Origin: Saccharomycopsis phalli | Taxonomy: Eukaryota > Ascomycota > Saccharomycetes > Ascoideales > Saccharomycopsidaceae | Assembly (NCBI GenBank): GCA_020342235.1 | Contig: CP073218.1 | Location: forward strand, 1,364,001-1,428,000 | Length of the DNA stretch: 64,000 nucleotides | Reading direction: 5' to 3' | In this document: positions 19,652-64,000 of the stretch, one piece after another | Numbering within the stretch: position 1 is the first letter of the stretch | How the letters are laid out: each line of letters starts with the position of its first letter | The notes under the pieces: model-generated | Databases searched by the model: none | What the model was told of the DNA's origin: nothing | The model's input: the letters and a program-made list of their open reading frames with translations, nothing else | Position numbers and translations under genes: made by a program

Positions 19652-20406
19652 CTACTCCATCGCGGCATTCTTCTTTACATAGTCCCACAAACTCTTCAAC
19701 AACGCATCGGGAAACGTATACAAGTCCATGGTAAACTCCCCCTCCTCCACATCGTTGGTGATGTTCATCTCCGCGGTCCGGTTGTCAGTCACCATCTGAA
19801 CCACAGTAAGCAAGTTATCCTCGGTCAACTTCGTCAACCCGCCAGCCAACTTCTCCAAATCAACCGAGCCCTTGACACTGCTCATGCCAAGCTTCGGCTT
19901 CTTGGCCTTGATGTCACCTGGAGCACCCTTGCGCTTGTCACCAGAGCCGGCATCGGGAACCGGTCCGGTTTCCGCCAAAAGACGCGCAAGCGCCGGTTTG
20001 CTGGCGTTGATGCTCACTTTCTGATCGTTCACGTAACGTGTCTCCCTGAAATGAAGGTCGTGCGTGATACTCACCACCCCACCGCCAATGAGATGGAGCG
20101 CAATCGTCATGTCAAACTCGCCCCACCCTTGCTCCTCGATTTTGAACGGCGGCTTTTTAAACTCTCGGGTCGGGTTTTCAAACGTGGGGTGGAGATGGTA
20201 CGTCACCTTGTCAAAGATATTCGCAGGAACCTCTTTGCCTTTGGCGTTGAGGAGCGAAATCTCAATCAGCCACCCACGCATCGGAAAACCCTCCTGGACC
20301 GGCGGAATATCTTGCAAGATGTTCTGGATGGTCGTCACTCTCACTGTTCGTTGTACCTGGGGTTAGGTGTGTATATTTGTGATGGTGTTTTACTTACCTC
20401 TGCCAT
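19652..20406 (-). CDS. TAF14: YEATS-domain subunit of TFIID/TFIIF and chromatin remodellers (spliced)
   Basis: Two exons: 20398-20406 (ATG GCA GAG) and 19652-20356, joined across a 41-nt intron (20357-20397; GTAAGT donor, CCTAAC branch, CAG acceptor). The 237-residue product starts MAEVQRTVRVTT. It has an N-terminal YEATS domain (about 1-130) with VTYHLHPTFENPTREFKKPP and IEEQGWGEFDM, which reads acylated histone H3. A lysine-rich linker and a C-terminal helical ET-like region (about 165-237) follow. S. cerevisiae Taf14 (244 residues) is nearly the same length and, as I recall, also has an intron near its start. Without splicing only a GTG would be available as start. It acts in the nucleus as a shared subunit of TFIID, TFIIF, INO80, SWI/SNF and NuA3. 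Confidence 0.9.
20357..20397 (-). other. TAF14: 41-nt spliceosomal intron in TAF14
   Basis: Donor GTAAGTA, branch-like CCTAAC, acceptor CCAG with only a few bases between branch site and acceptor. Exon 1 is only nine coding bases. Confidence 0.85.
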
Positions 20407-30919: not shown

Positions 30920-31900
30920 GACTAAACTGGATACTGCCACACTACAAACGACCCCGCTGAAGCAAGGAAAATTTCTGCTTTAAAAGAAGCTACACGGAAA
31001 AAGGTACCAAGGCATGGCAAGAGCTCATTGACTCAATGAGATCCGGCTCCGTCACATTATACAACTACACAAGGCTCAATTCGAGTGACTACTGAAAAGT
31101 CAAAATTACTACCTTCAGATGCCCTAGTTGGACCTAAGCAAACACTCAGCAAGATCAGCCACCCAGCGACCAAAGCTTAGTTTCATATAAAACTAATAAT
31201 AATATTTATTTTTGTATTTAGCTATATATTGTCTCCGGCAATACGGTGATTCGACAGATATATTTTCACTCAGGAACATCCTGAGGCAGCATTGCTGTTG
31301 AAGAAAACCCTTTGTCAACCCTCATTTGGTTGCTTGGGATTAAAAACTTCAGTGGGGGCAGTTATATTGTTGGTGCTTGGTGCTTGTATGGATTGTGTAA
31401 GAAGCCTGGTCACTCTTGTTGTCGAATGTGACCGCTGAATCTCATCATGTGTTGGAGGAATCATATTCCAACACGTTCTGGTAGAACTCAAGGAGTTTGT
31501 GGACTGATTTTTGGTCGGCAAACACTTTTCCAAGCGTATTGCGTATGCCAAACTGAGGATTGCCTTGGGGCCTGCAAGTGCTTCCGTGAGGAGGAGCTTG
31601 GTTTTGTTCATATAAAACTAGCACTTTATTCAACACCGAAGCGAGCCCAAGAACAGATATACAGGAATTACCACTGCTAATCAAGCCTGCCTCTTTTCAG
31701 ACACGGCGAAGCTTAAACTTATCGGATTCTACTCGTCTGTGCTGAACTGGCGGTTCCCTTTTTGCTACAGCACGTTAGGAGGACTACTGTGCTATATACT
31801 CTTGGTCAAGTCACCTACGACCTAGGAAAAGCTTACTGTCCTCCAATGCTCATTACCTTATATATTTACAAGCTCTTGACAAAAGTTTATATCTCAACAT
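30920..31900 (+). mobile_element. LINE family B copy interrupted by a family A LINE
   Basis: On the plus strand, 30955-31181 encodes decayed PLKQGKISALKEATRKKV and following ORF2 C-terminal sequence. After the interruption (31195-31606) the element resumes at 31620 with tttattcaacaccgaagcga, matching LFNAEAS of the 46.1-kb ORF. It then runs through the gacacggcgaagcttaaact and cagcacgttaggaggactac 3' UTR blocks to about 31900. Stops and frame breaks are present. Confidence 0.75.
31195..31606 (-). mobile_element. 5'-truncated LINE family A insertion with 13-bp target duplication
   Basis: The insert (412 bp, minus strand) starts within ORF2 (KTKLLLTEALAGPKAILS), runs through the 3' UTR and ends in an AATAATAATAAT-type tail at 31195. 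Both sides carry ttcatataaaact (31182-31194 and 31607-31619), and the host LINE reads through once one copy is removed. This is the expected product of target-primed reverse transcription. Confidence 0.85.
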
Positions 31901-41496: not shown

Positions 41497-42228
41497 TCAC
41501 TCGGTATCACGTTCATCCTCTGTGTTTCGCACAGTAATCACGCTTCCAAATCTCGGTACGTGCCTCCGGGAATTGCTCCGGAGCAAATAATACGAATGTT
41601 CTTCGCTCGCATCACTCTCGTCGTCCTTCTGTGCATCCTTGTCAAATAAATGGTGGGCAAAATAAAACAGATCAGTGTCTTGCGGGTCGTCTTCGTGACC
41701 AAAAAAGTATCGGAAGCAGGAGTAGTTGGTGAGCAAGTCCTTGTGCAACTCAAAGTACCTTGATTCGTCTTCATACACCAACGTGTTGTCAGTGTCTAGT
41801 TTTCTGCCTGTGCCCGAGTTCAAGTAGTTGAGAAGCGACTCTCCGGTGTGCAACTTACTAATGAGGTTTGCTTCGATGACGTAGCAGTTGACCTTGTACT
41901 TTTGCGATTCGCAGCTGGCATCCAAGTACTTCCAGCCAACGGTCTGGAGACACTGTTTGCAGTGTACGTTTTTGACCTTGAAGGTGCCGGTCATCAACTC
42001 ACGGACCTCGTACTTTTTTGGGACTACATAGTTTACCAATTTGCTGACAAAGTACGCGGCGCCATGTGTGCCTTTGAATTTCTGCCGTTAGTAGAGCCGG
42101 ATGGTGTGTATACTTACCCCAGGGATGATCCAAGCCAGGCTGATGAGATGGGTTGAGCAGCGATTACAAACGTAAGTGGAGTACTGGTGATTGATGTCGT
42201 CGATGGACGATGTTATTTTAAGTCCCAT
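41497..42228 (-). CDS. MOH1: Yippee-family zinc-binding protein (Moh1-like), spliced
   Basis: Two exons: 42118-42228 and 41497-42081, with a 36-nt intron (42082-42117). The 231-residue product has the Yippee fold: Cys21-x2-Cys24 (YVCNRCSTHL) in exon 1, KFKGTHGAAYFVSKLVN at the junction, and Cys78-x2-Cys81 (VHCKQC) with TVGWKYLDA and QKYKVNCYVIEANL in exon 2, which together bind one zinc. Only the spliced form joins the two Cys pairs. A tail of about 110 residues after the domain is acidic and unusual; S. cerevisiae Moh1 is 138 residues. Yippee proteins resemble the cereblon/RMI ligand-binding fold, and a role in stationary-phase survival or ubiquitin ligase work (Gid/CTLH) is known for relatives. 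Confidence 0.85.
42082..42117 (-). other. MOH1: 36-nt intron in the Yippee gene
   Basis: Donor GTAAGTA, branch TACTAAC followed directly by GGCAG. The exon junction restores the Yippee consensus across P-G/K-F. Confidence 0.88.
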
Positions 42229-48204: not shown

Positions 48205-48973
48205 TCAAGTCTTTTTGCTCCGGGTCTTTCGCACAGAAGTCTCATTCACTTGCAAATCACCCGACTTTTCTCCGCCCTTGACTTCCTTTTCTCCGCCCTT
48301 GACTTCCTTTTCATGGCCATACTTCTTGGCGTTTCTGGCATCCTTCTTCGCCTGCTTCTCCTCCTCGGCCTTTTTGCTTTGCTCCTCCAACTTCTCCTCC
48401 TCCTCCACTTTGGCCAAATACTTGGCATACTCGGCATCCGACTTTTGGTCCTCGAGAATCTGGTAGTACCGTCCGCCCTGCATGAAGAACACCCCAAACA
48501 AAAGCACCACCATAATCAGTTCACTGGCGCCAATGACATTTATTCCTGTAGGCATGTCGACCTCGCCCCAATTTCCGTGGATACACGCCTCGATTCCCGT
48601 GCGGACGTTGGTCAAAAACACACAAATGGACAAGAAGAACATTCCCCCGGAAACATAGTCATACAACTTGAGACTGTCCTTTGGCTTGTACAACAAAATA
48701 AGAAACCCAGAGAGTCCCAAAGCCGACACAACTGCCGGAATCGCAATCACCCACCGTGGAAGTGCCGCCCAGCGGCGATAATGTGCCAAAGAAGCCTCGA
48801 AATCGGCGTCGGTGGCAACGCTCCAAAGAGTGTTGTACACATATGGCATGTTGCCATAGAGAATTCCCAAGAGGAAAAACGTGGCTGGTGTTAGTGGGCG
48901 CGTTGCTGCTTGGCTACTTACCTGATAAGGCTAGACCTATGCCGATTGGAATGAGCTTGTTGTATAATCCCAT
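48205..48973 (-). CDS. SHR3: ER packaging chaperone for amino-acid permeases, spliced
   Basis: Two exons: 48922-48973 and 48205-48884, with a 37-nt intron (48885-48921). The 243-residue product starts MGLYNKLIPIGIGLAL, and splicing joins SATFFLLGILYGNMPYVYN, the hallmark first membrane segment (ILSATTFLMGILFSNMPY in S. cerevisiae). Four membrane segments follow, with LYKPKDSLKLYDYVSG and ICVFLTNVRTGIEACIHGNW and GEVDMPTGINVIGASE conserved. The cytosolic tail is Lys/Glu-rich with a tandem KEVKGGE repeat and ends in KKT. Shr3 helps permeases fold and leave the ER. A CACGTG lies at 49022-49027. Confidence 0.92.
48885..48921 (-). other. SHR3: 37-nt intron in SHR3
   Basis: Donor GTAAGTA, branch CACTAAC, acceptor ACCAG. 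It splits the codon for the Ala before TFFLLG (phase 1). Confidence 0.9.
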
Positions 48974-61803: not shown

Positions 61804-63426
61804 GAGTAATAGGGATGGGTCAAGGTGGTGACATGTGAATGTTGGTGAATCGTAGACGATGTTGGGTCGACAGGGCTGGTGATGCTGTAAATATTGATTA
61901 TCTAATGTGTTACTAAAGGCTGGGATATTTGGAATGACAGCAGCTAGTGTGCAATAGGGTGAATATCCTGGCTGTATACATGTTTACCATTACGTAATGG
62001 TATGCTTGGAAGCACGGAAGACGGTGCAATGACACGGTATAATGACATGGTACAATGAACAAAGTACAATTGATAGTGATGATTAAATATCGACACTATA
62101 TAATTGATAATTAAATATCGACACTGTAACATTGATAATTAAATATCGACACTGTAACATTGATAATGAAACATTGACAATCCATCACCACTCATCTCTG
62201 CATATATCCCAAGTCAATACTAAAACAGCTTGCTCACACTAGCTTGAAATCTTGTCCATGTCTTGCATCTACACTAATCACCTCAAGCTACACAACGTAT
62301 GCTTCACTCCCATTAAGATACCTCACTATCTACACCCCAGTTGATATTACACACGCTACAGACAAGGAAAACTATATCTTGTCAAAGCCTGCAAAAAGTC
62401 AAACAATGACCCATGTACATGGTTCTGTCCGCGAGCCATGTGCACATTGACCAGACTGAAGGTCAAACTACAACTGTACGACGGCCCAATAGCAATCTAC
62501 TGCTTCTCAAACATCCAGTAGTACCCAGCTCTCTATAGCCTGTCCAATGAGCCTTTTTCCTGACACGCCCTCAGAGACCTTGGTAATTATCGTTGGATTA
62601 TGAAACCCAGAGTCAGAAGCAGCTTCGCTAATTCAAGCATTAGATTTAGTTTTGGTGCTTGTGTATTGTTGGTGGTGGGGCCTGCTTTTAGCATGCATTA
62701 ATGTCCTGTCTTGGCACTGAAACAATGGAACCTTAGCAAATAACCTCTTAACGGTTTTGTATATTTCCATATCAATCTGGTAATTTGGGAGCCGATGACT
62801 TGGCGCAAGGAGATACCAAACTGGGCTAGACTGTACGCAGTAGCAAGATGTGAAATGTGTACCAAATGAATAGGAATATGGGCAACGGATTGAGGCATGG
62901 GGTTTGATAAGAGGTATGCAGATATAGTGAATCAACGAGGTATGAAAATAGGTGAATGAAAATGCGTGAAATGGAAATGGGTGAAATGGAAATGGGTGAA
63001 ATGGAAATGGGTGAAATGGAAATGGGTGAAATGGAAATAGATGGAAATATGAAAATAAAGTGTAGTCGAAAATAAAGTATAGTCGAAAATAACGTGTAGT
63101 CGAAAATAACGTGTAGTCGAAAATAACGTGTAGTCGAAAATAACGTGTAGTCGAAAATAACGTGTAGTCGAAAATAAAGTGTAGTCGAAAATAAAGTGTA
63201 GAAATATAGAAATATGCAAAGATAATATGATAATTAGCCTTGTTGCGTTGCAGAGGAAAGCCACAACAAGACCTTGAATATTAACAATACGTCCGAGATA
63301 TTCAACTGCCAATCATCGACACCACCATCAAGTTGATATCCAGTCTGACAAAACTACATGGAACAATTGATCAAGTATCACGCCGGGTAACTTCACCATA
63401 AAAAATAATTCATAATCACACTCACC
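61804..63426. repeat. Intergenic region with three minisatellites
   Basis: A 32-bp unit (gataattaaatatcgacact gtaacatt) at about 62073-62170; a 15-bp gaaatggaaatgggt array at 62950-63040; and a 17-bp gaaaataacgtgtagtc array (about eight units) at 63050-63202. A CGGGTAA lies at 63384-63390, 37 bp before the GPN3 start. 62180-62940 holds no recognised gene. Confidence 0.7.
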
Positions 63427-64000
63427 ATGTCTCGAACAGGAGTGATCGCATTAGGGCCTGCAGGCGCAGGGAAAGTAAGTCGTTGAGTTTTCCGGGCGTA
63501 CTAATCCAGACCACCTTTTGTAACTCATTGGTGAGCTATATGCAGCAGATTGGCCGCACGTGCCACCTTGTGAACCTTGATCCGGCTGCCGAGGCCAAAA
63601 AGTACGAGTTCACGGTGGATATTCGCGACTTGATCTCGTTGGAGGATGTGATGGAGGAATTGTCGCTTGGTCCAAACGGAGGGTTGGTGTATTGCTTTGA
63701 GTTTCTCCTCAAGAACCTCGATTGGCTTGAGGAAGAGATTGGCGAATACAACGACGAGTTTCTTATCTTCGACTGTCCTGGCCAGATTGAGTTGTACACG
63801 CACATTCCGGTGTTTCCTGCGATAATCCGGCACCTCCAGCGGAACATGAACTTCCTGCTCTGCTGCACGTACCTCATGGAGTCGACGTTTGTCATGGACA
63901 AGAACAAGTTCTTCTCGGGTACGTTGAGCGCAATGTCGACGATGTTGTTGCTCGAGCTTCCGCACATCAACATCTTGTCCAAAGTGGACTTGATCGAAGG
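63427..64000 (+). CDS. GPN3: GPN-loop GTPase 3, spliced, cut by the window end
   Basis: Exon 1 is 63427-63474 ([16 protein letters not shown]), and exon 2 runs from 63510 past 64000. Splicing of a 35-nt intron completes the P-loop GPAGAGKTTFCNSL. Then come [29 protein letters not shown] (containing the Gly-Pro-Asn loop that names the family), [12 protein letters not shown] (switch 2) and SKVDL at the window edge. GPN GTPases help assemble and import RNA polymerase II. About 175 residues are visible of a usual 270 or so. A Reb1-type CGGGTAA precedes it. Confidence 0.92.
63475..63509 (+). other. GPN3: 35-nt intron in GPN3
   Basis: Donor GTAAGTC, branch GTACTAAT, acceptor CCAG. It interrupts the P-loop exactly between the lysine and threonine codons. 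Confidence 0.92.

Follow-up and report, generated by a model that had tools for sequence, protein, structure and literature searches.

Saccharomycopsis phalli probably carries a large class of ordinary U2-type introns that have shrunk to about 35–50 nt, splicing itself being predicted from the DNA. The class came to light in a 64,000-nt stretch of contig CP073218.1 (the window), where an earlier note had proposed four such introns in the genes for GPN3, a Yippee-like protein, SHR3 and TAF14. All four were located at the sizes given there (Table 1). They have strong splice signals, every donor reads GTAAGT, and the putative branch A is separated from the terminal AG by three bases in GPN3 and by four in the others, much as the note had described. 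With GT...AG ends and recognizable donor, branch and acceptor signals, they have the features of U2-type spliceosomal introns.

Table 1. Exons and predicted introns of four genes in the window (positions counted from the first letter of the window)
Feature	Positions	Strand	Remarks
GPN3 exon 1	63427..63474	+	16 codons; ends in P-loop GPAGAGK
GPN3 intron, 35 nt	63475..63509	+	branch TACTAAT; putative branch A 63504
GPN3 exon 2	63510..64000	+	runs past window end
SHR3 exon 1	48922..48973	-	
SHR3 intron, 37 nt	48885..48921	-	branch CACTAAC; putative branch A 48891
SHR3 exon 2	48205..48884	-	
Yippee-like gene exon 1	42118..42228	-	
Yippee-like gene intron, 36 nt	42082..42117	-	branch TACTAAC; putative branch A 42088
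Yippee-like gene exon 2	41497..42081	-	
TAF14 exon 1	20398..20406	-	ATG GCA GAG (MAE)
TAF14 intron, 41 nt	20357..20397	-	branch ACCTAAC; putative branch A 20363
TAF14 exon 2	19652..20356	-	YEATS and BET domains

Retention of the intron would lead to a stop in the upstream frame after 2–18 codons in each of the four genes, and its removal joins two open frames in all of them. A Pfam domain spans the junction in three: ATP_bind_1 covers residues 9–178 of GPN3 (junction after residue 16), the domain of the Yippee-like protein covers residues 18–119 (junction after residue 37) and that of SHR3 residues 8–194 (junction at 17/18). No Pfam domain lies over the TAF14 junction. Because exon 1 of TAF14 has three codons and the YEATS match begins at residue 28, support for this intron comes from the ATG together with its splice signals, and it is the weakest of the four. 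In the window the splice pattern has four matches; 100 dinucleotide-preserving shuffles averaged 0.59, with a maximum of 3, and none of them reached four. Upstream of GPN3, window positions 62970–63210 hold two tandem-repeat stretches, GAAATGGGTGAAATG... and GTAGTCGAAAATAA....

The 14.15-Mb assembly that contains the window was searched with the pattern GTAAGT-N8..38-CTAAC-N0..12-YAG (short bin) and with the same pattern carrying N39..69 (long bin). The short bin returned 239 places and the long bin 44. Reversed patterns matched 100 and 109 times, respectively, and GTATGT donors at the same spacing showed no net excess in the genome (53 matches versus 86 in the reversed control). Since the reversed controls exceed the real counts in two patterns, they form an unclean background, and setting bins of equal width against each other is more informative. 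An initial, over-strict splice pattern gave no matches. Among the matches listed, short-spaced ones lie on contigs C1, C2 and C3. The distance from donor to CTAAC rises steeply at 19–20 bases, with 18 or fewer in only 4 of the 97 distinct donors among these matches, and in the short bin the spacing from CTAAC to AG is exactly three bases in 43 of 97. An ARP2-like gene (L074) contains two introns close together, of 50 and 46 nt. In the 46-nt one the signals are weak, with GTATGG as donor and no CTAAC at the branch, and it escapes the consensus patterns, which must therefore undercount short introns as well. One sequence that recurs among the genome matches, found in the window at 31765–31818 on the minus strand (GTGACTTGAGCC...CCTAACGTGC), imitates the intron pattern and may be a repeat dispersed in the genome or a regulatory element.

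Matches were then judged from reading frames. The flanks of 20 short-bin donors were read, the first ones listed, all of which lie on C1. Sixteen of the 20 behave as introns of 35–52 nt (median 38), with removal joining an upstream open frame to a downstream frame of at least 49 codons. The remaining four (L032, L042, L044 and L045) were rejected on frame reading; their candidate lengths are 61, 40, 53 and 27 nt. When the first 20 long-bin places were read, five looked like introns, of 55–70 nt; L071 is ambiguous, two places (L061 and L062) fall within open frames, and the others are negative. The proportions 16/20 and 5/20 differ with Fisher p 0.001. Projected from these samples, and so from C1 alone, the genome would hold roughly 190 introns with exactly these signals in the short bin and 11 in the long bin. 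A Pfam family matched 15 of the 16 spliced short-bin products, the exception being L051. The matching domain spans the junction in nine of the 16 (HMG-CoA synthase, sugar transporter, S13, Arf, HORMA, prephenate dehydratase, kinase, phosphatase and ATP19) and fails to do so in six. Four of the five long-bin candidates were scanned in the same way, and in one of them a domain crosses the junction. L051 and its neighbor L050 (G000 C1, about 1185–1189 kb) are adjacent intron-bearing genes, one with a homeodomain and the other with no Pfam match, and the pair resembles a mating-type locus by eye.

An independent survey covered the window and twenty 10-kb stretches on C1, C2, C3 and C7 (264 kb in total) and allowed lengths of 25–500 nt. 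It recovered three of the four window introns, missing GPN3, and yielded nine candidates of 36, 37, 41, 44, 44, 46, 48, 252 and 450 nt. With two decoy donors the survey produced four and two candidates, all of at least 125 nt; the seven short candidates (36–48 nt) are therefore without a decoy counterpart, and the two long ones fall within decoy numbers. We regard the longest of them, the 450-nt one in L016, as doubtful. A survey based on codon usage had earlier produced nine candidates, several inside open frames; it was too noisy and has been superseded.

Longer introns are also present. ACT1 has a 119-nt GTATGT intron after ATGGATGCTG, removal of which restores MDAEDVAALV, and in RPS7 an intron of 155 nt separates SIRE from IEVSGGKKA; both are supported by the reading frame. 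RPS25 (L021) probably has a 252-nt intron that stops immediately short of the ATG and shares its 3′ end, TACTAAC-TTCAG, with the short introns. As this intron precedes the start codon, a frame check is impossible and the call is supported by its signals; an intron of S. cerevisiae RPS25A is mentioned in PMC13309789. The branch A lies 8 nt from the intron end in RPS7 and 9 nt in ACT1. Alongside the short class, which dominates the intron population, there is thus a longer one, found at least in certain genes of high expression. Hence the earlier proposal of genome-wide short introns of uniform size stands as regards a short class across the genome, as the counts of 239 and 44 indicate, but the uniformity is contradicted by ACT1, RPS7 and the signal-supported RPS25 intron and by the five long-bin places that look like introns of 55–70 nt.

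The geometry of the short class was described from 20 checked introns, chosen by their consensus signals. The branch A lies 28–45 nt from the donor G, at 28–32 nt in 15 of the 20, and is followed by six nucleotides in 14, five in four, seven in one and nine in one. All 20 thus have the branch within the 10 nt or so of the AG that characterizes U2AF1-bearing yeasts, in a range that the search patterns bounded at 12 bases plus YAG. For the MATa1 intron of yeast, Kohrer and Domdey (1988) reportedly arrived at a minimum. A branch close to the AG has been described in U2AF1-retaining yeasts (PMC4202332, PMC5499181), and the short donor-to-branch distance, being less usual, is the more distinctive feature. 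In a report on 11 yeasts, the presence of U2AF1 shortened introns through the branch-to-acceptor part and not the donor-to-branch part (PMC8496845), whereas both parts are short in S. phalli. The minimum donor-to-branch distance described for human systems is about 46–50 nt (PMC11291888, PMC6692369).

Contrary to what had been supposed, the introns are not near the smallest that spliceosomes are known to handle, because shorter ones exist: those of Stentor are reported as 15–16 nt (PMC9505925), and the medians in the Bigelowiella nucleomorph, Paramecium and Encephalitozoon are 19, 25 and 32 nt (PMC2483917, Table 2). Stentor, Paramecium and the Bigelowiella nucleomorph resemble S. phalli in having spliceosomal introns near the minimum size, but theirs are 15–25 nt long with weak branch signals. 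Encephalitozoon cuniculi likewise has few, short introns in which conserved signals are kept (PMC2483917); it is, however, a parasite of reduced genome in which 13 introns were studied, whereas S. phalli has an estimated couple of hundred in a free genome of 14 Mb. Yarrowia lipolytica shares a CTAAC branch very near the YAG, the presence of U2AF1 and no need for a long 3′ region, but its median is 204 nt (PMC2483917, Table 2) against about 38 nt in total for the short introns of S. phalli, and its donors are given as GTGAGT, with 1–2 nt from branch motif to acceptor (PMC13309789), where S. phalli has GTAAGT. The likeness to Saccharomyces cerevisiae lies in strong consensus sequences at donor and branch, in the greater length of introns in genes of high expression and in bimodal lengths (as described in PMC4202332); S. 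cerevisiae differs in its median of 148 nt, its lack of U2AF1 and its greater branch-to-AG distance.

It is an even question whether the short introns are an inherited trait common to a whole group of budding yeasts, of which the S. phalli genome would be typical. Ogataea (Hansenula) polymorpha, another budding yeast with short introns, is compared here by its mean alone, given as 65 nt over all introns (PMC3866509). With some long introns among them, such a mean would suit a much shorter median and could hide one near that of S. phalli, which may for this reason not be exceptional among budding yeasts. A short branch-to-AG distance, common to U2AF1-bearing yeasts, points the same way. Against this, the medians of 10 budding yeasts range from 63 to 467 nt (PMC2483917, Table 2), and 71 nt was termed a short median in an account of Geotrichum candidum (PMC4479816). 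Protein searches also name no single relative. For PDS5 the nearest named match is in Ogataea philodendri (36%). HMG-CoA synthase comes closest to that of Saccharomycopsis crataegensis (76%), with Lachancea, Kuraishia and Ogataea no more than three points away, and U2AF1 to that of Trichomonascus (55%); by sequence similarity these matches indicate a budding yeast, but the nearest named yeast differs from protein to protein.

That the four window introns are real and their shortness a local or gene-class effect, compounded by selection on the part of the reader, we consider unlikely. Introns of 119–252 nt in ACT1, RPS7 and RPS25, and five real-looking ones of 55–70 nt in the long bin, are what such a reading would expect; it does not accommodate the excess of short-bin over long-bin matches, spread over C1, C2 and C3 among those listed, the introns at 16 of 20 unselected short-bin places, or the seven of nine survey candidates at 36–48 nt.

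The genome search found a full-length U2 snRNA (124.4 bits) with GUAGUA intact. Prp18 is present, with a match over profile positions 32–140, as is Slu7, with a weak match of 51.7 bits that runs beyond a stop along the profile. What we take to be the zinc knuckle of Slu7 looks intact. Work in yeast suggests that a short branch-to-AG distance might make Slu7 and Prp18 dispensable; loss of either was rejected, both being in the genome. U2AF1 (L026) is a 178-residue frame with 52–55% identity to named fungal U2AF small subunits. Its first zinc finger scores over the Pfam cut-off and its second (19.1 bits) below, and the Pfam RRM model found no match in this frame. The protein apparently starts at MSNC, without an intron splitting the codon of the first zinc-finger cysteine; that codon is described as intron-split in many yeasts (PMC4202332). 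Cwc25 and Isy1 were found as well, with the N termini MAPGDLN and MSKERAK, which show few differences from the reference sequences, in part paper-quoted, with which they were compared. Three glycines are named for the plug of human Cwc25 (PMC9505925), and two of them are replaced in MAPGDLN.

These features make it improbable that the spliceosome was remodelled for tiny introns in the manner of Stentor. The Cwc25 and Isy1 termini and the weak Slu7 match would fit remodelling, but a two-residue change at one protein tip is no evidence of it, U2 snRNA is full length, and Slu7 and Prp18, reported as undetectable in Stentor (PMC9505925), are both found in S. phalli. The claim of a genome-wide adaptation of branch and 3′ splice-site recognition is not borne out, as U2AF1, Slu7 and Prp18 are present and neither loss nor clear remodelling was found; the factors do not point to a special machinery, though they would be compatible with a small change. 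In human cells, Smu1 and RED are reported to be required for short introns (PMC6692369). Last, it is scarcely credible that nothing is spliced, the matches being due to chance or to coding sequence, or the frame breaks to assembly errors: clear non-introns do occur among the matches (4/20 in the short bin, and two long-bin places inside open frames), but no shuffle reached the window count, domains cross three of four and nine of 16 junctions, and the same donor and branch motifs recur at all junctions.

We favor ordinary U2-type introns, a large class of which has been reduced in length. Each would comprise GTAAGT, a filler that keeps donor G and branch A about 28 nt or more apart, CTAAC, usually two bases, and YAG. 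U2, with its intact GUAGUA, would recognize the branch, and the 3′ splice site would be chosen a few bases past it, probably held by U2AF1, as has been suggested for other U2AF1-retaining yeasts. This role for U2AF1 is qualified by Vanderwaltozyma and two Tetrapisispora species, which are described as keeping U2AF1 with branch-to-AG medians above 30 (PMC4202332), so that U2AF1 is not always paired with a short branch-to-AG distance. The filler may have eroded to the shortest donor-to-branch spacing that the spliceosome tolerates, and a few highly expressed genes (ACT1, RPS7 and probably RPS25) would have retained longer introns with the same 3′ end. The spacing floor of about 28 nt, based on 20 introns picked by consensus signals, may reflect a mechanical limit.

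It is possible, if rather doubtful, that a standard fungal spliceosome has reached a donor-to-branch minimum of about 28 nt, compared with about 46–50 nt in human, through a small change in an assembly factor, and that most non-ribosomal introns sit at this minimum. Were this so, the change that lowered the spacing limit would be findable by comparison with yeasts intolerant of such spacing. The donor-to-branch minimum is a physical limit of spliceosome assembly, and a budding yeast with many spacings of 28–32 nt and a near-complete standard toolkit would open that limit to genetics. For annotation, we infer that gene finders set to a longer minimum intron length would break many genes in such genomes.
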